DNA of 22,093 nucleotides from a virus, in IMG/VR virus record IMGVR_UViG_3300020433_000057, positions 1 through 22,093 of that record; one strand, given 5' to 3'. The notes under the pieces were generated by a model, which worked only from the letters and a program-made list of their open reading frames with translations, was not told the origin of the DNA and ran no database searches. The position numbers and the translations under genes were made by a program. Shown one piece after another: positions 7,901 to 19,016 of this stretch; position 1 is the stretch's first letter; each line of letters opens with the position of its first letter.

Positions 7901-8321
7901 CTTTCTTTTTGAAGGTAAAGAAACCTTCCGCACCTTGCCAATATCCTCTATCCCATGTGTGATATTCATTATGATATAATCTTGCCTGACTCTCTAATGG
8001 TTTGTTTTTATATGTACATTCTGGTTCTGATACACCTTCCCAATAATTACCACCCTCAACAAATGAAAACACCATGTCGCATGCAGGATTTTTTACTATT
8101 ATAATAGGAACATTTGCACCAAGAACATGTGGTTCTGTTATTTCCACAGTTTGTTCTCTGTATGGTTTATCCATGTAACTGTAACGAGAAGATGTATGAA
8201 ACATATCCATACCTATCTTCTCATGTTTCACTATTATATGTGCCCACTTTGTAGGATTTGATGCTGCCTGTGTCCAGTTATCGAACTCACCTTCAAACCA
8301 TTCACTAAACGTCTTTTTCAT
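7896..8321 (-). CDS. cpeT: CpeT/CpcT-type phycobilin lyase-like protein (phage auxiliary gene)
   Basis: The 141-residue protein follows the CpeT/CpcT family pattern along its whole length: [17 protein letters not shown] (residues 13-29), [14 protein letters not shown] (44-57), NPACDMVF (78-85), [11 protein letters not shown] (92-102) and [15 protein letters not shown] (123-137). In the host, T-type lyases attach phycoerythrobilin or phycocyanobilin to phycobiliproteins of the phycobilisome. Cellular members are usually near 200 residues; this short form resembles the cyanophage-encoded CpeT versions, one of which has been shown to bind bilin. Its start overlaps the end of the ACP gene by 17 bp, implying translational coupling. 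Its stop lies inside the late promoter of the next gene. Family assignment is firm; whether it ligates, carries or sequesters bilin during infection is inference. Confidence 0.85.
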
Positions 8322-8805
8322 CTACTTTAGATTCTCGGATATCCTCATGTAATCTTTCCATTGCTTCTTTTGTTTCTTCACTAGCAAGATTTGATCCGAT
8401 ATATTGACCTGGCGGTTTTGACATCATAGGACTCTCAGGATGTGGAACTGGAGTTTGCTTACTCTTGTATGCTGCTGCGTTTATTGTTTTCTTCTTGCCT
8501 TTGTTTGCTTTGCACTTCTTGATTGTTTCACATGCGTCACCAACTGTGACTATATTTCCTGCTTCTTCGTCAGGAATCTCAATACCAAAACATTCTTCTA
8601 AAAACATGACAAGTTCTACCATGTCAAGACTGTCTGCCTCTAGGTCAATAAATTTACTGTCCCATTTGATATTGTCATACTCTACTCTATCCCCTAGAGT
8701 TTCTTTGATAGCAAGTTGTGCTATCTGTAGCATAAGATCTTTAGTAATCTTCTTATTATTTTTTAGAAGATCCTTGATTTCACTATAAGTTTTGTTGTAA
8801 GACAT
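8305..8805 (-). CDS. Acyl carrier protein with N- and C-terminal extensions
   Basis: Residues about 23-95 match bacterial acyl carrier protein closely: [18 protein letters not shown] (54-71) then [19 protein letters not shown]. Ser59 in the DSL motif is the expected 4'-phosphopantetheine attachment site. The usual Gly of DLGADSLD is Glu here. Host-type ACPs are about 80 residues; this one has 166, with about 22 extra N-terminal residues, a basic linker ([10 protein letters not shown], near 93-102), a Pro/Ser-rich stretch, and an acidic helical tail ([17 protein letters not shown]). ACPs carry acyl chains for fatty-acid synthesis or partner enzymes. No acyltransferase, ketosynthase or PPTase is seen in the window, so it would depend on host enzymes. 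It shares one base (TAATG) with the 59-aa gene upstream and overlaps cpeT downstream. Confidence 0.88.
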
Positions 8806-10124: not shown

Positions 10125-12931
10125 TAGTATCCACCTCCGTATGGTGAACTTGGTGAACTAGGAGCACTTGGTGCACTTGGAGCAGATGGAGCACTTGGAG
10201 CACTTGGTGCTGAGGGAGTCGATGGAGTAGAAGGTGCACTTGGTGGTGGTGTAGATGGTGTAGATGGTGTAACAGGAGTTGATACTGGATCAGCAACAGT
10301 TGGAGTAGAAACTGTAGTTGTATCACTATCAGTTGTAGTTTGCTCTAATTGACTGTCTATTAAATTAAATGAGGTATCAGTTAATCCCGCTTCTTCATCC
10401 TCTTTTGCTGATTTTATCATAGGATGCCCTACACAGTCAATATATTGTGTGAGTGGTAAGATATTGTTCTCTTTTATTTCTCTTGGACTTGTATACGTAT
10501 AAACAGCACTTAACAAAGCACCAGTTCCAGTTCCTGATTTGTTTATCGTACCTTTATCCTCTATTACTGGTTTAATAAAACCTATGACTGTTTTTGTAAT
10601 AGTTGCCTTCACAATTCTACCCTTTGAATCTGTAGTCGCAGTTCCTATCTCCTGTGCTTTAGATCCTGTTCCTATTGTTATGACTGGATTTACATAATTT
10701 ATCCCAACATTTATAACACTAACATCTCGTATTTTAGGAATGATATCACCACACTTAGCATAAATTGCTGTCGCACCTTGTGGTATTACTAGAGTTGGAA
10801 ACTTATCATTGAAGTTCAATATAAACTCATGTCCAGATTTAGTTTTTAACGCTAAACCAACAACTAAGTTTGGATTGAAATCTGGATCTATGGTTGTAAT
10901 CAATATGTGTTCCGAATCATAGTTAACATCTACAACTTGCAATATGTCAGGGTTGCCTTCTGTAATTTGTTCTATAAACTCACCATCATTAACATGTTCT
11001 TGCAATCCTGCCTTATCAACTAGCACACCATATTGTTCATTAGGACAAAATGTAGTTGCAGGATCAAATCCATATCCTATGCCAGGATTTGTAACTTCAA
11101 TAGAATCTACGACACCATTAACAATATTTGGTTTGAATGTCGCACCACTACCTTCTGGTTCATTACATGTAAATTGAGCTTTTACAGATGCTTCCGTATT
11201 GACATTAGATCCCTTCTTTTGCACGAACACACCAAGAATCTGTCCAATATCATCTACAATAGGCAATGCTTTTACTGGACTTGTTGATTGTAAATTATCC
11301 CATACCATCTCTGGGAAGCATGGTTTCTTGTTCAAGATACTATTGTTACAATTAACTGCTTGACTTGATATATTTCCTGACGAATCATAGAAGTTAAGAC
11401 CCTCAAACTTCTCTAAAGGTCCTCGTGTGTCAAATGCTTTGTCTGTCAAACCAGTAGCAATTCCTGCAGGACTATCTAAATCAACTAATGATCCATTTAC
11501 AGTATCAAATATTTTCTTGACTCCATTACGATCTACAGCAGGTACAAATCCATTCTTAGGTTTTGCATCTCCTACAATTGATACAGAATTAGGTGGTTTT
11601 ATTTTGAATTGTGATATTTCTTTTGCTGCTTTTTCTAATCCTTTTGGTTTGGCACCGATACCTGTCTCAAACACTGACGCACCAATAGAACATGATAATT
11701 GTCCGTCACAGAATAAATCTAAGAAGTCACCAACTTTGTTTAATAAGTTTTGAATTTTTTGTGCTGATCCTTTAATTGCACCCGTTACACCTTTCAATAC
11801 ATCTAACGCACCCGTAATCTTATCCATCAACTTTTTCATAATATCACCAAGCATATTTTGAACAAGACATAATGCGGTGTCTAACACGTTTTCTACCAGA
11901 TCACTAAGCATTCCTTTGATAAAATCACCAAGTTCATCTATCAACTGTTTGAATAGACATGAAACTAAATCACCTACACTTTTAAGTTGCTCTCTAACTG
12001 CAACATCTAATTCTGGGTCTGGTATGCTGAGTTTATCTAAACCATCTTGCACTAATTTATTAGTTTCTTCCATGACTACGCCTTTGATGTTGGCGGTCAA
12101 TCCAGTAAGTTTCTTTTGTATGCGTTGTTGAACTAAATTAATCTCATAATCCATGTCAACAACTTTACCAGTTGCTTTATTAATGAACTGATCTATCTCA
12201 TTTTTTTCTACACCACGAGCAAATTTCATAAACTCTGCCATAGGTGCCTCTAATTTTGCAGCAGTCTCACTACCACATTTACCGTTACCCACATGTACAG
12301 TGACTTCTTGTTTTTCTTTTGCTATCTTTTGTTTCTCACTCTCTAACTTTGCTGCACCACGTTCGTTTTTACTGTCTGTAGAATTATGTGTATGTCCATC
12401 ATTATTTTTTGGTGCTTCATCAAGACCAGTCTCTTCATTTACCTCAACTGTGCTACCTGTGTTTGGTGATGCACTTCCATCACCATTCATATGTTTAAAA
12501 TCATAATCTGGAGTTGCTAATTGTGCAAATCCCTGTTCTAAACCACCTTCAACACCATATCCACCACTAGGGTTTTCATCAGCAATACTACCCATGACAA
12601 TAGGTATTTGTGATGAAGTTCCATCCATAAAGAATCCTACAACCCAACTATTGAGTTGTAATTGGTGAATAGAACCCATGCCAGATCTCATAGAATATAT
12701 GGGTGGCATTAAGACCTGTGCCCATGGTAAATCTTGAGTAGGTAACTCTTTTCTATTTGGATTATGATAACCTACAATTCTAACCTTTACTTTGTTAGTC
12801 CAATCCCAGTCTGAATAATCGAATCTACTGATCTCAGCATTCCAAAATTTGTTACCATCATTCTCTACCTGTCCAACCCACCAGTTGAAACCTTCTCTTC
12901 CTATAAAATTAGCAACGTTTTCATTCATCAT
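10124..12931 (-). CDS. 5: Baseplate hub protein gp5 (OB-fold; no recognisable lysozyme domain)
   Basis: Residues 1-125 match the N-terminal OB-fold of T4-like gp5 (FIGREGFNWWVGQVENDG, RVKVRI-like NKVKVRIVGYHNPN, LPWAQVLMPP, SWVVGFFMDGTSSQIPIVMG). This domain sits on the gp27 trimer in the central hub. After a charged linker, residues about 225-425 are long amphipathic helices (for example MAEFMKFARGVEKNEID), then beta modules with two copies of a V-x-N-x-G-x-x-Y element (EVTNPGIGYGF; SVINVGINYVNP). The C-terminus is a Ser/Ala/Pro/Thr-rich tail with tandem SAP triplets ending in YGGGY. The T4-lysozyme-type domain of T4 gp5 is not visible. It overlaps the gp27-like gene by 4 bp (ATGA). At 935 aa it is much longer than T4 gp5 (575 aa). 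Confidence 0.85.
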   Translation of the reverse strand: MMNENVANFIGREGFNWWVGQVENDGNKFWNAEISRFDYSDWDWTNKVKVRIVGYHNPNRKELPTQDLPWAQVLMPPIYSMRSGMGSIHQLQLNSWVVGFFMDGTSSQIPIVMGSIADENPSGGYGVEGGLEQGFAQLATPDYDFKHMNGDGSASPNTGSTVEVNEETGLDEAPKNNDGHTHNSTDSKNERGAAKLESEKQKIAKEKQEVTVHVGNGKCGSETAAKLEAPMAEFMKFARGVEKNEIDQFINKATGKVVDMDYEINLVQQRIQKKLTGLTANIKGVVMEETNKLVQDGLDKLSIPDPELDVAVREQLKSVGDLVSCLFKQLIDELGDFIKGMLSDLVENVLDTALCLVQNMLGDIMKKLMDKITGALDVLKGVTGAIKGSAQKIQNLLNKVGDFLDLFCDGQLSCSIGASVFETGIGAKPKGLEKAAKEISQFKIKPPNSVSIVGDAKPKNGFVPAVDRNGVKKIFDTVNGSLVDLDSPAGIATGLTDKAFDTRGPLEKFEGLNFYDSSGNISSQAVNCNNSILNKKPCFPEMVWDNLQSTSPVKALPIVDDIGQILGVFVQKKGSNVNTEASVKAQFTCNEPEGSGATFKPNIVNGVVDSIEVTNPGIGYGFDPATTFCPNEQYGVLVDKAGLQEHVNDGEFIEQITEGNPDILQVVDVNYDSEHILITTIDPDFNPNLVVGLALKTKSGHEFILNFNDKFPTLVIPQGATAIYAKCGDIIPKIRDVSVINVGINYVNPVITIGTGSKAQEIGTATTDSKGRIVKATITKTVIGFIKPVIEDKGTINKSGTGTGALLSAVYTYTSPREIKENNILPLTQYIDCVGHPMIKSAKEDEEAGLTDTSFNLIDSQLEQTTTDSDTTTVSTPTVADPVSTPVTPSTPSTPPPSAPSTPSTPSAPSAPSAPSAPSAPSAPSSPSSPYGGGY
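10142..10272 (-). repeat. Short tandem repeats encoding the Ser-Ala-Pro/Ser-Thr-Pro tail of gp5
   Basis: On the plus strand this stretch is built from 9-bp units close to ggagcactt, with ggtgcactt and ggtgtagat variants. On the coding strand they give consecutive SAP triplets, then STP/SSP variants. The unit-to-unit variation is small, so slippage could change the copy number. It forms a probably flexible tail at the C-terminus of gp5, just before the separate needle-like gene. Confidence 0.8.
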
Positions 12932-14184
12932 GATTGAGTCTCTTCACCATCAGAATCGGTGTATAATGTGAGTTTTGAGGTCATTTTGTCCTCACTACTC
13001 TTAAATGTTCTCTCTACTCGACCAATAACATATTTACCAGAGTTTGCAAAATCTGGTTCTCTCTCACTCGTTCCTTTATAGATGTCTAGTTGTACAACCT
13101 CACCTATTTCTAACGAATAATCTGCTACAAATTCTACCACAACTTTTTTGTTGTAAAATAATTTTTCCCTTAATGAGGATTGTGATAATTGTTTTGTAAA
13201 CCCCTGTGTGTATGTTCCTTCAGTAAATAACGCAGAGTCAGATATTTTTGACATGATTCTAGTATATGTCCTAGTGTTGTTGAATCCTGAGTAAAATTCT
13301 GGAGTTGTTCTAGAGTTCATTACACTAACACTCTGATAATATTTATTGATGTTAAAAGGATATTCTTGATACTTCATATTTCTAAGATCTAAAGTCATAA
13401 CGTTGCTTGAATATGATCCTAAGTTCAACCCTTTCAGTAGATCAACAGATGACTCAACCGTAACTGTTGGCACAGCAAGAATACCTTTATCGTCTTCATC
13501 TTCTAGTTCTGATCCTTCATGTCCTACAACCATTCTTATAACGGGTTCTTTAGATGCAAATGAATCATAAGATACAAAATTATATCCAGATCTAGTCTCA
13601 TAAAATGCGTATCCTGCACTTGCTGCCTTACCACTGCCCTTTCCAGCTGGTATTGCTTTTGCTGCTAACCATCTTATAGATGTAAATGGATTCCAATATG
13701 GTGATATGAAAGAGAAATTATTGATACAAGGTTCAAAATTTTGCATTCTCTCATCAGAAACACCTAACAAATCACCTAATATCTCTTTCCTGACAATATC
13801 ATGTATCTTTACACCTTGCCCTTTCCCAAATCTGCGTGATATTTTATTTCCTGCATTATTTAAAAAATCAACTTTACATAACATCAAAACTGCCGATGAC
13901 CTACCACCTATATTTCTTCTATCTTGTATATCATATATGACATATTCTCCTCCAATCTCTGTTCTACCCTCACTATCACCAATACGTATGAATACATTTT
14001 CCATACCTGTCAACTCGGATAAAAATCCAGTCTCACTGTCGGTAATTTGCACCTCCATGAGCATGGTTGCAGACATAATATCCTCAGTATATCTGACATA
14101 CAATACCTGATTGACGCCAATAGGAGGATAATCGGCAATCAAAAATTGATATAATTGAAAATTGGACTGTGTATTAACTGACAT
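12928..14184 (-). CDS. 27: gp27-like baseplate hub protein
   Basis: The 418-residue protein lies directly upstream of gp5, overlapping it by 4 bp, as expected for gp27, whose trimer binds gp5 at the tail tip. Length fits (T4 gp27 is 391 aa). The segment FSFISPYWNPFTSIRWLAAKA (residues 158-176; written here as its core PYWNPFTSIRWLA) is characteristic of phage hub proteins of this type. N-terminal strands (VLYVRYTEDIMSATMLMEVQ) and C-terminal strands (GEVVQLDIYKG, SGKYVIGRVERTF) fit the beta-barrel domains that adapt the tail tube to the hub. It shares one base (TAATG) with the 449-aa gene before it. Assignment rests on motif plus synteny with gp5; overall identity to T4 gp27 is probably low. 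Confidence 0.75.
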   Translation of the reverse strand: MSVNTQSNFQLYQFLIADYPPIGVNQVLYVRYTEDIMSATMLMEVQITDSETGFLSELTGMENVFIRIGDSEGRTEIGGEYVIYDIQDRRNIGGRSSAVLMLCKVDFLNNAGNKISRRFGKGQGVKIHDIVRKEILGDLLGVSDERMQNFEPCINNFSFISPYWNPFTSIRWLAAKAIPAGKGSGKAASAGYAFYETRSGYNFVSYDSFASKEPVIRMVVGHEGSELEDEDDKGILAVPTVTVESSVDLLKGLNLGSYSSNVMTLDLRNMKYQEYPFNINKYYQSVSVMNSRTTPEFYSGFNNTRTYTRIMSKISDSALFTEGTYTQGFTKQLSQSSLREKLFYNKKVVVEFVADYSLEIGEVVQLDIYKGTSEREPDFANSGKYVIGRVERTFKSSEDKMTSKLTLYTDSDGEETQS

Positions 14185-15533
14185 TAGAATTGAGAAGTTG
14201 TATTGTATGCTTCAATATAAGGAGATCCCTTTATCATAGGTTGAGCAAGTTCACCACCTTCTGCTTGCATTGGAGGAGGACTTGGTGTACTAGCAATAGC
14301 ATTACCTGTTCCACTGGCAATATCAATCTGTTTCTGAGTTTTAGAGTCAGCATTTTCTCTATTTGCCTGTATTGTCTTATCAGTTAATTCTGTTAGATTA
14401 GTAACCTGATCACCTTTTGGTGCAAATATGTTTTTTATTCCACCAAATGCCTTCATGCCAAGTTTAAGACCCATGCCCGCAGGAGACATCATAAATGCTT
14501 TCTTTGCTAAATTTTTCACCCCATCTTTCATACCCATTGCTTTGCCAGCTAATCCTTTCGCACCCTTGAATAAACCCTGACCCGCATTGAGTGCCATACC
14601 CATCGGTGTCAAACCAAATAATTTTTTAGCAAGACCACCACCTTTACGTTTCTTAATGGGTTGCATCGCTCTACTGCCCGATGTACCATCGCCAAGACCT
14701 ATACCATCAGCAGTTCCTGTGTATGGTGCACGTCGTCCAGACGTAGGATCTCCAACCAGAGCACCGCCAGGACTAGGAACTATAGCACTACTCTGTTCTA
14801 CTCCACCTTCCCCACCAGATGATCCACCGCCCATCTTTCCACGAATAAATTCAACTGCCCTTCCTAAGAGACCACCAAGAATAGTTCCTTCTTTCTTATC
14901 CTCTTTGTTATCGTTATCCTCTTCGTCATTAGCAACCTCAGAACTAGCAGCACCCAACTTAAATGATTGTGATAATTGATTTATATTTCTATTCAATACC
15001 TTAGATGCTTCTTTACTTGGTGCGGGTATTTTCTCTAGTAAATCCACCATTGCAACAGCAGCAGATTTAGCAGGAAGTGCTAAGGCATCCATAAATGCCT
15101 TCTTAGTCTTAGGATCTATATCAAATTGATCTTCTAAATCTTTTTTTACCTTTTGTTTTACTTGATCCTCATCTATTCCTGCATTCTCTAACTTATCGAC
15201 TTTCGGTGTTTCTCCTGCCTCTGGTAAATCAGGATCTATCCCTGCTGCCCTCTTTGCTCTACGTTCTTTAAATTTTCTTATTCTATCTTCCTTCGACAAA
15301 TATTCTCCAGTCTTAGGATCTACACCCATTGCTGCAACTGGGTCTGGTACAAGATTTTGTTGTGGTTCTACCTTTGGTTTTATTATAGGTTTAGGTGTTA
15401 CATCTGTGGCAGTAACATCAACAGTTTGTTGAGATGCAGGGATATCAAATGCTTTTGCAATCGCATCGGGATTTGCAATGAACTTTGCTAGTCCACCACC
15501 TTGTTTTGACATTGCGGGAGGTAATGCTTTCAT
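14184..15533 (-). CDS. Inner-tail/baseplate structural protein with internal duplication (449 aa)
   Basis: Not assignable to a named T4 gene. The N-terminal half is charged and helical (RIRKFKERRAKRAAG; KQKVKKDLEDQFDID). A Gly-rich linker (residues about 230-245) leads to a C-terminal Lys/Gly/Met-rich half with two related copies: AKKLFGLTPMGMALNAGQ... and AKKAFMMSPAGMGLKLGM.... Each copy is a basic amphipathic segment of about 30 residues. The gene abuts the M15-peptidase gene (TAG directly followed by ATG) and shares a base with the gp27-like gene, the region where T4 keeps genes 28 and 29. It is probably a minor inner-tail or hub component packed with the tape-measure-like protein, but this rests on position and composition only. 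Confidence 0.75.
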   Translation of the reverse strand: MKALPPAMSKQGGGLAKFIANPDAIAKAFDIPASQQTVDVTATDVTPKPIIKPKVEPQQNLVPDPVAAMGVDPKTGEYLSKEDRIRKFKERRAKRAAGIDPDLPEAGETPKVDKLENAGIDEDQVKQKVKKDLEDQFDIDPKTKKAFMDALALPAKSAAVAMVDLLEKIPAPSKEASKVLNRNINQLSQSFKLGAASSEVANDEEDNDNKEDKKEGTILGGLLGRAVEFIRGKMGGGSSGGEGGVEQSSAIVPSPGGALVGDPTSGRRAPYTGTADGIGLGDGTSGSRAMQPIKKRKGGGLAKKLFGLTPMGMALNAGQGLFKGAKGLAGKAMGMKDGVKNLAKKAFMMSPAGMGLKLGMKAFGGIKNIFAPKGDQVTNLTELTDKTIQANRENADSKTQKQIDIASGTGNAIASTPSPPPMQAEGGELAQPMIKGSPYIEAYNTTSQF

Positions 15534-17414
15534 CTATACAAACTCATACTTATATGATCCCTTTCCTTGAGGATCTATTATTGTGTGTTGCTTAGTCCAC
15601 CACTCGTTGAACTCAGGAGTGCCAATTGGCATAGTTACTGGTCTATCCACATAAACAATTTGAACTCCGCCAGGCAATATTGCACCTTTGGTCATCGACC
15701 CTGTATCACCAGATCCAACGTTAACTGGTTCATTATTTAGAGTTTCTTTTGCAACATTTGTGCCAGGTGCTGTAATATTGGATACATCCTTCTTACCATC
15801 TGCTGCAGAACCTGATGATGGTGCTCCTACTGGATCATCAAGGTTAGGTATCCATTTATTTTTGCCAGGTTGTAACCATTTGTCGTTAGGTTCATTATTA
15901 TAGAGATCGAAATGAACTGGATCTTTCTCACCTTGCCACTGGAAACCATATTTCTTACCCTTTTCTCGCATCCACTCATTTGCTTTTGAGTAGTAATCAA
16001 TATCCACTGCCCAACCTTGTCCGTGTGGAGATTGTCCTACAGGTGCAGGACTTATGACATTCTCATCTCCTGCAGATGCTGCATCTATTAATGCTTGTTG
16101 TTGTTCTGGACTTCTATATGAAGATGTTACACTCATAGGCAAGTTGATACCATCTTTTGCTGCAGCGTTAACTGCCTTCTTCCATGCTTTCATGGTTGAT
16201 GGGTTCAGTATAATTGGTCTACCATACATGTCTTTAGTAGGATCAGGTGCTTGCATACCTGATTGTTGATCCTCGGCCTGTTTTTGACCTGGCAACACAC
16301 CCATATCTTTAGCAGCAAGTGCAGCATCAAGTCCCACTGATACAGCAGTTCCTACGCCAGGTATTGTAGATGCTATACCAGATGCTGCTTCAAGCATTGC
16401 ACCCTTAAAATCACCCGCCATCAATCGTTGTCCTGCAAACAACAATCCTGCACCCATACCAACGAAAGGTATCTTCTTCAATAGTCCTTTACCTAATGCT
16501 TTTGTACCTACCTTGGCAATTGCTTTTGCACCTACCTTGGCACCAATCTTCTTAGCACCTTTTTTGAGTAATGCCTTTCCTGCTTTACTTGCACCTTTTA
16601 ATAGTTTGCCACCTGATTTTGCAACCTTGGATATACCCTTGGTCGCTTTCTTACCACCAGCTACAATGTTTCTTATCTTCTTACCTAATTTTAAATTCTT
16701 AAATTTTTTCCCTAACTTTAATTTTTTCCCTATATTCTTTACGTTCTTGAACATTCGAGCAAAATTCATCATGCCCTTTCCACCACCTTTTGTTGGATCT
16801 TGCCCTTCTTTCTTCTGTTGAGGTATGGCACCAGTTTTTGATGACGACATGCCACCCCACCATTTCAATGGTGCTTTTAACCCAATTGTTTTTTGTGGTT
16901 TAGGTGTCTCAACTATACCAAAAAATGCTTTTAACTTATTTGCTTCTGTTACTACACTTGCTTTTGCAGGAGATGGAGGTAATGTTTTTAAAAAACCTAG
17001 TGATGAACTTATTATTAATGCTGCACCTTGTTTGTATATTAGTTCTACAGACTCACCATAGTCCTTTACAGGTTGTACAACTTCTGGTTCTTTCTCTCCA
17101 ACTTTTGCAATAGTTTCTCTCTTTACAATACCACCCTTCTGCAATGCCACCTCTGGTTGGTATGGCATACTCTTCTTAAATGCTACCTCTTTTATTTTCT
17201 CTTCTACTATCTGTTTATATTTTGAGTCGTCTTCCTTATCAGGTCTCTCTACGGGTTCTCCTCTACCATATGTCGTATCAACTTCATTAATAGGTATGGG
17301 TGCTATGGCAGGAACTATTTTTACCTCGTCTGTATTTGTGACAGCACCAGCTACCCCCGCAACAAGCGAACTTACTGCTTTCTTAAAAAACTCAATAACT
17401 GCTTTGCCTTCCAT
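15534..17414 (-). CDS. Tape-measure-position tail protein with VanY/M15 peptidase domain (626 aa)
   Basis: The N-terminus is helical. A strongly basic Lys/Gly/Ala-rich region (about 215-315) is followed by a hydrophobic Gly/Ala segment (about 316-372), then a peptidase M15 (VanY/D,D-carboxypeptidase type) domain at about 395-510. Motifs: SSYRSPEQQQ (431-440), SPHGQGWAVDID with zinc ligands His464 and Asp471, and VHFD with His501. M15 enzymes cut D-Ala-containing peptide bridges of peptidoglycan. The gene follows gp26 and the gp51-like ORF, exactly where tape-measure genes follow their chaperones. A likely role is tape measure/inner-tail protein with a wall-opening enzyme used during DNA entry. 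The M15 call is strong; the tape-measure call is inferred from position. The start is ATG 17414, sharing one base with the preceding stop (TAATG). Confidence 0.82.
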   Translation of the reverse strand: MEGKAVIEFFKKAVSSLVAGVAGAVTNTDEVKIVPAIAPIPINEVDTTYGRGEPVERPDKEDDSKYKQIVEEKIKEVAFKKSMPYQPEVALQKGGIVKRETIAKVGEKEPEVVQPVKDYGESVELIYKQGAALIISSSLGFLKTLPPSPAKASVVTEANKLKAFFGIVETPKPQKTIGLKAPLKWWGGMSSSKTGAIPQQKKEGQDPTKGGGKGMMNFARMFKNVKNIGKKLKLGKKFKNLKLGKKIRNIVAGGKKATKGISKVAKSGGKLLKGASKAGKALLKKGAKKIGAKVGAKAIAKVGTKALGKGLLKKIPFVGMGAGLLFAGQRLMAGDFKGAMLEAASGIASTIPGVGTAVSVGLDAALAAKDMGVLPGQKQAEDQQSGMQAPDPTKDMYGRPIILNPSTMKAWKKAVNAAAKDGINLPMSVTSSYRSPEQQQALIDAASAGDENVISPAPVGQSPHGQGWAVDIDYYSKANEWMREKGKKYGFQWQGEKDPVHFDLYNNEPNDKWLQPGKNKWIPNLDDPVGAPSSGSAADGKKDVSNITAPGTNVAKETLNNEPVNVGSGDTGSMTKGAILPGGVQIVYVDRPVTMPIGTPEFNEWWTKQHTIIDPQGKGSYKYEFV

Positions 17415-17578
17415 TAACGTTTACGTTGTTCCTCTGCGATACGCTCTCTTTCTTTTTGTAAGTGAGCTGCTAACATATTCACATACACCTCGCGTTCCCA
17501 AGGCATCATATTTTCAATATCTGTCAAACTATATTTATGGTGTTGAACGAGAGAAAAATTAGTTTGATAAAAGGTCAT
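17414..17578 (-). CDS. 51: gp51-like small tail/hub assembly ORF (54 aa), possible -1 frameshift extension of gp26
   Basis: Minus-strand ATG at 17578 opens a 54-residue ORF: YSLTDIENMMPWEREVYVNM (18-37) followed by a charged helix ending QKERERIAEEQRKR. This 'tDiEnMMPwEReiYv' helix is typical of the small protein beside gp26 in T4-like phages and resembles the C-terminal extension of G-T type tail chaperones. Two expression routes are visible. First, independent initiation from GAGG, 5 nt before the ATG. Second, -1 frameshifting at the end of gene 26: the frame is open from the slippery heptamer through nine codons (RIALFHEGI) into this ORF, giving a 294-residue fusion. The gp51 symbol is by position beside gp26 and is tentative. 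Confidence 0.72.
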   Translation of the reverse strand: MTFYQTNFSLVQHHKYSLTDIENMMPWEREVYVNMLAAHLQKERERIAEEQRKR

Positions 17579-17581
17579 GAT

Positions 17582-17626
17582 GCCCTCATGGAAGAGGGCT
17601 ATGCGAAAAAATCAGATAACCCTTCT
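17582..17626 (-). promoter_or_regulatory. Candidate -1 programmed ribosomal frameshift signal at the gp26/gp51-like junction
   Basis: Read on the minus strand: an SD-like AGAAGGG (17626-17620), 8 nt later a slippery heptamer T TTT TTC (17611-17605) in the correct phase with the gp26 frame (GAT TTT TTC GCA TAG), a 5-nt spacer, then a hairpin with a 6-bp GC-rich stem GCCCTC/GAGGGC (17599-17594 with 17587-17582) and a 6-nt loop. The gp26 stop codon is two codons after the slip site. The 3' arm of the hairpin contains GAGG, which could also serve as SD for the small ORF, so the hairpin could equally couple re-initiation. Confidence 0.65.
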
Positions 17627-18297
17627 AATACAACGTCGTTTACAACTTTAGTTTTAGGATTTTTTACCTTCAACACGTGTTTTAAACTAGGCATTGTCTC
17701 AAAAAACTTTTGTATTTCAGTAAACTGTGAGTTGGTTAGTGACTCTACCCACCCTCTAGATTCCTCAGTTGTGAACGAACTATAATCTTCCTCACCAACA
17801 TAGACTCTCTTAATACACTTAGCAACCAACTCATATGGATCGGGTTCTTCACCTATAAAATTAATCTTAGTAAAGTATTCCAAATCTGGATACTTCATTT
17901 CGACAGTAATTTCATCTGATAACTTGATGACAGGAGTGTGTCCTTTAGGAAAATTAACTTTGACGTCATTTACATAAAATTTTACGTCTACCGTGGTCTC
18001 TCCATCATCAGCACATGTAACCTTCATCTCAATCTCTTCACTGATCGACCTAGCACGTATCTGTAGAAACAAATATTCTATATCAAACAATGCCAAATCT
18101 TCTATCTTTACCTTAGTGTGTAGACAGTTTTTTATGGTACTGGTAATAGCGTCTAATATTTGTTCTTGATCGTCATTCTCTAATGCCAATATTAATAACT
18201 TTTGTTCTTTGACAAGGAATGGTCTATACTTTACCTTTTTCTTTGTAGAAGGAATAGTTAAGGTATAGATTGGCGTCGCAATCTCAGGTAATGGCAT
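17599..18297 (-). CDS. 26: Baseplate hub/tail assembly protein gp26
   Basis: The 232-residue protein has the conserved T4-type gp26 N-terminus: PEIATPIYTLTIPSTKKKVK, then YRPFLVKEQKLLILALE and the segment LALFDIEYLFLQIRARSI (near 64-81). This matches the T4 baseplate hub gp26 family (T4 gp26 is 208 aa). In T4 it acts with gp51 in building the central hub. The position just before the gp51-like ORF and the tape-measure-position gene is also that of the G-type tail chaperones of other phages. The C-terminus ends SDFFA at a slippery T run, so ribosomes may either stop at 17599 or shift to make a longer product. ATG 18297 is preceded by an AT-rich leader with no strong SD. Confidence 0.82.
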   Translation of the reverse strand: MPLPEIATPIYTLTIPSTKKKVKYRPFLVKEQKLLILALENDDQEQILDAITSTIKNCLHTKVKIEDLALFDIEYLFLQIRARSISEEIEMKVTCADDGETTVDVKFYVNDVKVNFPKGHTPVIKLSDEITVEMKYPDLEYFTKINFIGEEPDPYELVAKCIKRVYVGEEDYSSFTTEESRGWVESLTNSQFTEIQKFFETMPSLKHVLKVKNPKTKVVNDVVLEGLSDFFA

Positions 18298-18332: not shown

Positions 18333-19016
18333 TTAGGTGGTTATTAAGTGACTATACTCATAGTAAAATCCTACAGTTACCTTAACAAGTTGTGCAGGAC
18401 CTGCTGAGTATGGTATTGATGCTACAGTGTATGGGTATGCCTTAACTAATCTGGCATTCCATGGATTAGCAAGTGAGTCTTTCTTTCTATTGCCATTGGT
18501 GTCAGTTGTACCAGCTATCTTACCATCATATTTTTCTAGTTTGTTTATAAACATGTCACATGCATAGTCTTCATAGTAATTAGATGCGAATGCTCTCTTA
18601 TATTCTTGATCATCATAGAAGAACTCAGGGTTAGAAGCTACACCGTTGGATGTAAAGTCTTGCCATGCTCTAAAAAATCTTAATGGTAGTGATGTTCCAT
18701 CCATGAAGAAACTAACATCTAATTCATTATATACTTTTGCAGTCGCCATCTTCTGTGTGATGCCCTTGTGAACTGACTTTATATCAAATGCTGAATATGT
18801 CACGCCAGGCAACTGTATCTCATTACATAACAACTGCAAATTTATCTCATCACCATTGTCAGTTAACTTTAAAAACTCTTCTAACAGGTTATCTTTAAAG
18901 AATTTTTGTAATTTTGGAGTTGGTTGGAATGAAAATTGGTATAAATTAGACGCAGAAATACCACCAGCTTTGCCGATGGATCTCATAAAATTCTCTAGTC
19001 CTCTTGCAGTTACCAT
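18333..19016 (-). CDS. Tail-tube-fold protein (gp19/gp54-like)
   Basis: The 227-residue protein resembles T4 gp19-type tail tube proteins: YQFSFQPTPKLQKFF near the N-terminus, INLQLLCNEIQLPGVTYSAF (58-77), then YNELDVSFFMDGTSLPLRFF (96-115) and W-x-D-F. Canonical gp19 is shorter (T4, 163 aa), and here the gene sits with hub genes and not beside the sheath gene. It may therefore be the tube initiator (gp54 equivalent) or another tube paralogue and not the main tube subunit. It is first in the leftward hub operon, with a late promoter (CATAAATA) 26 nt upstream and AGG 5 nt before the ATG. Fold family is fairly safe; the exact gp number is not. Confidence 0.72.
   Translation of the reverse strand: MVTARGLENFMRSIGKAGGISASNLYQFSFQPTPKLQKFFKDNLLEEFLKLTDNGDEINLQLLCNEIQLPGVTYSAFDIKSVHKGITQKMATAKVYNELDVSFFMDGTSLPLRFFRAWQDFTSNGVASNPEFFYDDQEYKRAFASNYYEDYACDMFINKLEKYDGKIAGTTDTNGNRKKDSLANPWNARLVKAYPYTVASIPYSAGPAQLVKVTVGFYYEYSHLITT

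Follow-up and report, generated by a model that had tools for sequence, protein, structure and literature searches.

Two outcomes are conceivable for a ribosome that reaches the end of gp26 in this marine virus. It may stop at the gp26 stop codon, leaving the small gp51-like open reading frame (ORF) downstream to be started separately, or it may slip back one base and read on into that ORF, so that one start codon yields two proteins. The stretch of DNA analysed here (the window) comprises 22,093 bases of the virus record, and at the DNA level the named phages nearest to it are the Prochlorococcus phages MED4-213, P-HM1 and P-HM2 (76-79%). P-HM2 has the same gene order as the window; its annotated "gp51" is a 30-aa protein begun at an internal start. 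Judged from sequence, the best explanation is a programmed −1 frameshift of the lambda G/GT type at T_TTT_TTC, through which a single start codon would yield a tail assembly chaperone in two forms; we put its probability at roughly 0.93. The features on which the argument draws are as follows.

18333-19016, minus strand: tail-tube-like ORF directly upstream of gp26 (PF23849, E = 3e-15).
17599-18297, minus strand: gp26, zero frame, the predicted short form of the tail assembly chaperone (TAC-N), 232 aa (232 codons and TAG).
17620-17626, minus strand: Shine-Dalgarno (SD)-like AGAAGGG, a putative stimulator, ending 8 nt upstream of the heptamer.
17611-17605, minus strand: slippery heptamer T_TTT_TTC, in the gp26 phase X_XXY_YYZ, read from the sequence.
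17599-17601, minus strand: zero-frame stop TAG of the short form, read from the sequence.
17582-17599, minus strand: 6-bp hairpin, a putative stimulator, observed only in the window's clade (z = −3.67).
17414-17611, minus strand: −1 frame, FFRIALFHEGI followed by the gp51-like C-domain, which with gp26 would make the 294-aa long form (TAC-NC).
17576-17578, minus strand: in-frame ATG of the 54-aa ORF, a possible start for coupled re-initiation, clade-specific, with GAGG 5 nt upstream.
17414-17578, minus strand: gp51-like ORF of 54 aa, starting at ATG 17578.
15534-17414, minus strand: 626-aa ORF in the tape-measure position, with an M15/VanY peptidase domain (PF02557, E = 4.5e-9).
14184-15533, minus strand: 449-aa ORF, after the 626-aa ORF in gene order.

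Read on the minus strand, the last codons of gp26 are GAA GGG TTA TCT GAT TTT TTC GCA TAG, and the heptamer T TTT TTC that an earlier note on this DNA had placed in phase before the gp26 TAG is exact at 17611-17605. The further elements described in that note are likewise present in the sequence, namely the SD-like AGAAGGG 8 nt before the heptamer (17620-17626), the 6-bp GC hairpin 5 nt past it (17599-17582), and a GAGG within the 3′ arm of the hairpin, 5 nt before the ATG of the small ORF. The hairpin is built from the stem strand GCCCTC (17599-17594), the loop TTCCAT and the strand GAGGGC (17587-17582), with the 5-nt spacer GCATA between it and the heptamer. From the slip onward the −1 frame is uninterrupted to 17417, which bears out the open frame and the 294-residue fusion that had been proposed; the region of this predicted 294-aa protein that spans the junction is SDFFRIALFHEGI. 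In-frame X_XXY_YYZ heptamers are common in the window's genes (42 in about 6,870 codons of the 16 listed genes, five of them T6), and the heptamer alone is therefore weak evidence.

What carries the reading is the conservation of the site. Homologues of gp26 were gathered from IMG/VR and from named phages, and 325 loci with a complete junction were counted; a KVP40-based scan of viral contigs contributed only two further loci. In 323 of the 325 loci an in-frame T_TTT_TTC or T_TTT_TTT starts between 7 and 31 nt ahead of the gp26 stop, and in every one of these 323 no stop interrupts the −1 frame between the slip and the C-domain. Carriers of T_TTT_TTY range from Prochlorococcus phages to KVP40 (Vibrio), and include S-PM2, S-RIM2, Mosig (Pelagibacter), phiN3 (Sinorhizobium), pf16 (Pseudomonas), CC2 (Aeromonas), ACP17 (Acidovorax), OLIVR6 (Agrobacterium), Marzo (Stenotrophomonas), phiAS5 and Bakedbeans. 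When the heptamer-bearing loci are grouped in 77 clusters below 70% identity, the first Phe of the slip site is spelled TTT in 77/77 clusters and is preceded by a T in 77/77, despite a variable preceding amino acid. The 77 clusters share descent, so that these counts are not independent events, and Phe columns of the same gene serve as the control for that: seven further conserved Phe columns of gp26 use TTT in 48-88% and have a preceding T in 6-45%, and the first Phe of a second Phe-Phe within gp26 is TTT in 48% of clusters. Because the slip site is conserved in 323 of 325 loci, its position, phase and context go far beyond what chance would give, and we regard this conservation as decisive.

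The sequence past the slip site is also kept as protein. The −1-frame peptide FFRIALxHxxLExYYxxNFALMQHHKYSLTEIENMxPWEREIY is retained across lineages, and in the portion ahead of the ATG (FFRIALxHxSLENYY) the conservation follows a codon-like periodicity. Over the eight codons from the slip to the ATG position, mean entropies at codon positions 1, 2 and 3 are 1.23, 0.69 and 1.52 bits, as expected for coding sequence, and this stretch codes in the −1 frame. The C-domain that follows is predicted to be helical and matches phrog_634 (E = 7.2e-25), as well as positions 243-280 of the 282 positions of phrog_150. Start codons are distributed quite differently from the slip site: before the C-domain core, 43 of the 77 clusters have no in-frame ATG, GTG or TTG, eight have GTG or TTG only, and 26 have an ATG, which sits at several different columns. 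With no start codon ahead of the C-domain in 43 of 77 clusters, the general product cannot be a small protein made on its own.

A comparison with T4 points in the same direction. The window's gp26 matches Pfam T4_baseplate (PF12322, E = 4.6e-65) and phrog_150, baseplate hub (E = 1.6e-75), and a profile of the fusion protein matches T4 gp26 at 1.7e-23 and T4 gp51 at 2.3e-13, the latter match being colinear across the junction over most of its length. Within phrog_150, T4 gp51 covers positions 13-280 of 282. By these profile matches T4 encodes the long form separately, as gp51, and would thus need no slip. In T4 and WG01 gp26 ends with Gly-Leu-Lys-Glu-Phe-Phe, spelled GAG TTC TTT (G_TTC_TTT), which is not slippery, and in AS-gz gp26 the Phe-Phe is lost. 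The T4 lineage can be seen as a natural control, with a second gene copy in place of recoding.

The predicted fold of gp26 agrees with a chaperone role. In an AlphaFold2 model of gp26 (63-sequence alignment, pLDDT 88), the best VIA-align matches for residues 1-94 were 3fgx, 3klu and 2ob9 (Z of 8.1, 7.6 and 7.5 over about 85 residues), and the next match had a Z of 4.6. These three are RBSTP2171, YqbN and HK97 gp13, respectively, all of them phage tail assembly chaperones (PMC9603447). The Foldseek E-value of the chaperone match was about 0.7. Although a Z near 8 can reflect common arrangements, a chance match is unlikely because chaperones fill the top three places, and the model lends moderate support to a chaperone-like fold of the gp26 N-domain. 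Profile comparison of gp26 with lambda G gave nothing, and a search of solved structures by sequence gave nothing meaningful.

With a programmed −1 frameshift at this junction, most ribosomes would stop at TAG and release gp26 (232 aa, TAC-N), while a minority would slip back one base, keep the Phe-Phe, and read RIALFHEGI into the gp51-like helical C-domain to complete the 294-aa fusion (TAC-NC). Reasoning from lambda G/GT, one would expect the N-domain to form oligomers that coat the tape measure protein and the C-domain of the minority form to recruit tail tube subunits. We infer the slipping itself, its rate and the binding partners of both forms. The suggestion in the earlier note that gp26 and gp51 may be a G/GT-type pair draws support from the near-universal slip site and open −1 frame, the colinearity with T4 gp51 and the predicted chaperone fold.

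In lambda, a −1 slip in G/GT gives short and long chaperone forms. The gp26 junction resembles it in its predicted short and long forms and in a putative −1 slip close to where the first gene ends, ahead of an ORF in the tape-measure position, and differs in its slippery sequence, since lambda's is other than T_TTT_TTC, which here stands with SD-like and hairpin elements; sequence similarity between lambda gpG and gp26 is not detectable. The Escherichia coli dnaX gene combines an upstream SD-like stimulator with a downstream hairpin, the same arrangement as that of the putative stimulators at the gp26 junction. Unlike gp26, dnaX is a cellular gene that slips on A_AAA_AAG, and its frameshift product is the shorter one.

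Both candidate stimulators leave a signal in the alignment. The stability of the downstream RNA was computed over 60 nt from 4 nt after the heptamer and compared with dinucleotide shuffles; in the window this RNA is steadier than its shuffles (z = −3.67), and the mean z of the 77 clusters is −1.48, compared with −0.25, −0.26 and −0.33 at three control offsets. A single RNA structure common to all lineages was not found, the stems being a 6-bp GC stem in the window's clade, a long AU stem in S-PM2 and a long stem in S-WAM1. Among the 56 distinct junctions of the window's clade, third positions of the −1 frame are invariant at 4/4 sites within the stem vs 6/27 outside it (Fisher p = 0.007), and because of this invariance the hairpin itself appears to be selected in the clade. 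The SD-like site has a mean anti-SD ΔG of −6.2 over the 77 clusters, where control positions give −0.3 to −3.5, and is stronger than synonymous recoding gives (z of −0.79 ± 0.14; controls +0.05 to +0.30). Loci L072-L080 have the slip site without the window-type GC hairpin and without the ATG. In L072, the one locus of this group for which structure was computed, downstream structure is not significant (z = 0.17), and in L072-L080 as a whole such structure may be dispensable or located elsewhere.

The hairpin also bears on what else may be made in the window's clade of Prochlorococcus phages. Frameshifting and re-initiation could both occur there, so that the short form, the frameshift fusion and a re-initiated free 54-aa C-domain are three outputs of one locus, which we consider unlikely. 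All of the evidence for frameshifting fits this picture as well, and the ATG with GAGG 5 nt upstream is clade-wide. Yet stimulation of the frameshift suffices to explain the stem, and the conservation of the ATG is weak evidence when neighbouring residues are mostly as invariant; the scattered columns of the ATGs in other lineages are what chance Met/Leu exchange would give. Similarly doubtful is the more detailed proposal that the 3′ arm of the frameshift hairpin is the SD, a single hairpin then both stimulating slipping and gating re-initiation.

Coupled re-initiation with no fusion at all is far less probable. Ribosomes would stop at TAG and restart at ATG 17578 through the GAGGG of the hairpin arm, releasing a free 54-aa gp51. 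In its favour, the window's clade has the ATG in 56/56 distinct junctions and GAGGG likewise in all 56, and annotators of related phages have called separate gp51 genes from internal starts. The related phages K444 and D503 (Vibrio) and CBA120 (Escherichia) (L096, L338 and L097) are without the heptamer and keep a C-domain in the −1 frame, K444 and D503 having a TAATG overlap at the junction; in this lineage frameshifting may have given way to restart. As a general mechanism restart is ruled out, most clusters having no ATG, GTG or TTG in the place where it would begin. It would also leave the invariant T_TTT_TTY unexplained, and is at odds both with the peptide between slip and ATG being kept as protein in the −1 frame and with the encoding of the T4 long form as one protein. 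The pattern that the earlier note had set against its own proposal, a missing slip site or stops in the −1 frame together with a conserved ATG and SD, is the reverse of what was found, as the slip site is present in 323 of 325 loci and the ATG and SD are not conserved. Least probable of all is a chance heptamer, or a sequencing error that split one gene, which is ruled out by conservation: in-frame heptamers are not rare in the AT-rich genes of the window (42), but the identical site, phase and stop arrangement recurs in 323 loci from many separate assemblies.

A frameshifted tail chaperone in T4-like phages has, according to citing papers, already been proposed. Poly-T −1 slip signals in T4-like TAC-N genes are credited to Vladimirov, Gautam and Davidson (Virology 2022, 566:9-15) in PMC12846349, and PMC10885494, citing Vladimirov et al. 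(2022), describes some T4-like phages as having a short gene and a separate fused long gene. The earlier note was unaware of this proposal, and its mechanism is supported while its newness is not, given the citations of Vladimirov et al. (2022) for T4-like phages. Full-text literature searches found no open paper on frameshifting in cyanophage gp26/gp51. In the Vandenendeviridae and Andersonviridae (phage Adele), an invariant poly-T lies at the TAC-N end before the tape-measure gene, and the −1 frame is open in all genomes (PMC12846349); the Adele group differs from the window in its GTTTTT motif and belongs to another phage lineage. The present analysis adds a large survey of slip sites, a count of start codons, the finding of synonymous constraint in the stem within the clade, and the T4 codon control.

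Many cyanophage genomes label the C-domain as a "baseplate hub assembly catalyst" in its own right, frequently begun at an internal start, or omit it, and a −1 frameshift at gp26 would correct this annotation. The C-domain has no annotated feature in 14 of 33 cyanophage genome rows (H121-H153). In PMC3037559 cyanophage gp51 came out at only some 20% of the length of its T4 counterpart, and on our reading it looked short because it forms the extension to a frameshifted protein.

Downstream of the junction, the 626-aa ORF would, from its position, be the tape measure. Its match to phrog_16823, "tail length tape measure", is limited to the peptidase domain; the phiN3 ORF in the corresponding region matches tape-measure PHROGs (3.5e-5), and several related phages have a protein of 570-700 aa at or near the same place. 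Should the 626-aa ORF be the tape measure, its predicted D-Ala-D-Ala carboxypeptidase (VanY/M15) domain might work on the cell wall as the phage enters.

Two other proteins of the window were noted in passing. A 166-aa ORF amid the tail genes (8305-8805, minus strand) carries a phosphopantetheine attachment site (PF00550, E = 2.5e-8) and appears to be an acyl-carrier-like protein. A 935-aa gp5-like protein, with a weak Gp5_OB match, has a C-terminal Ser/Pro/Ala-rich repeat followed by GGGY (10127-10330, minus strand).
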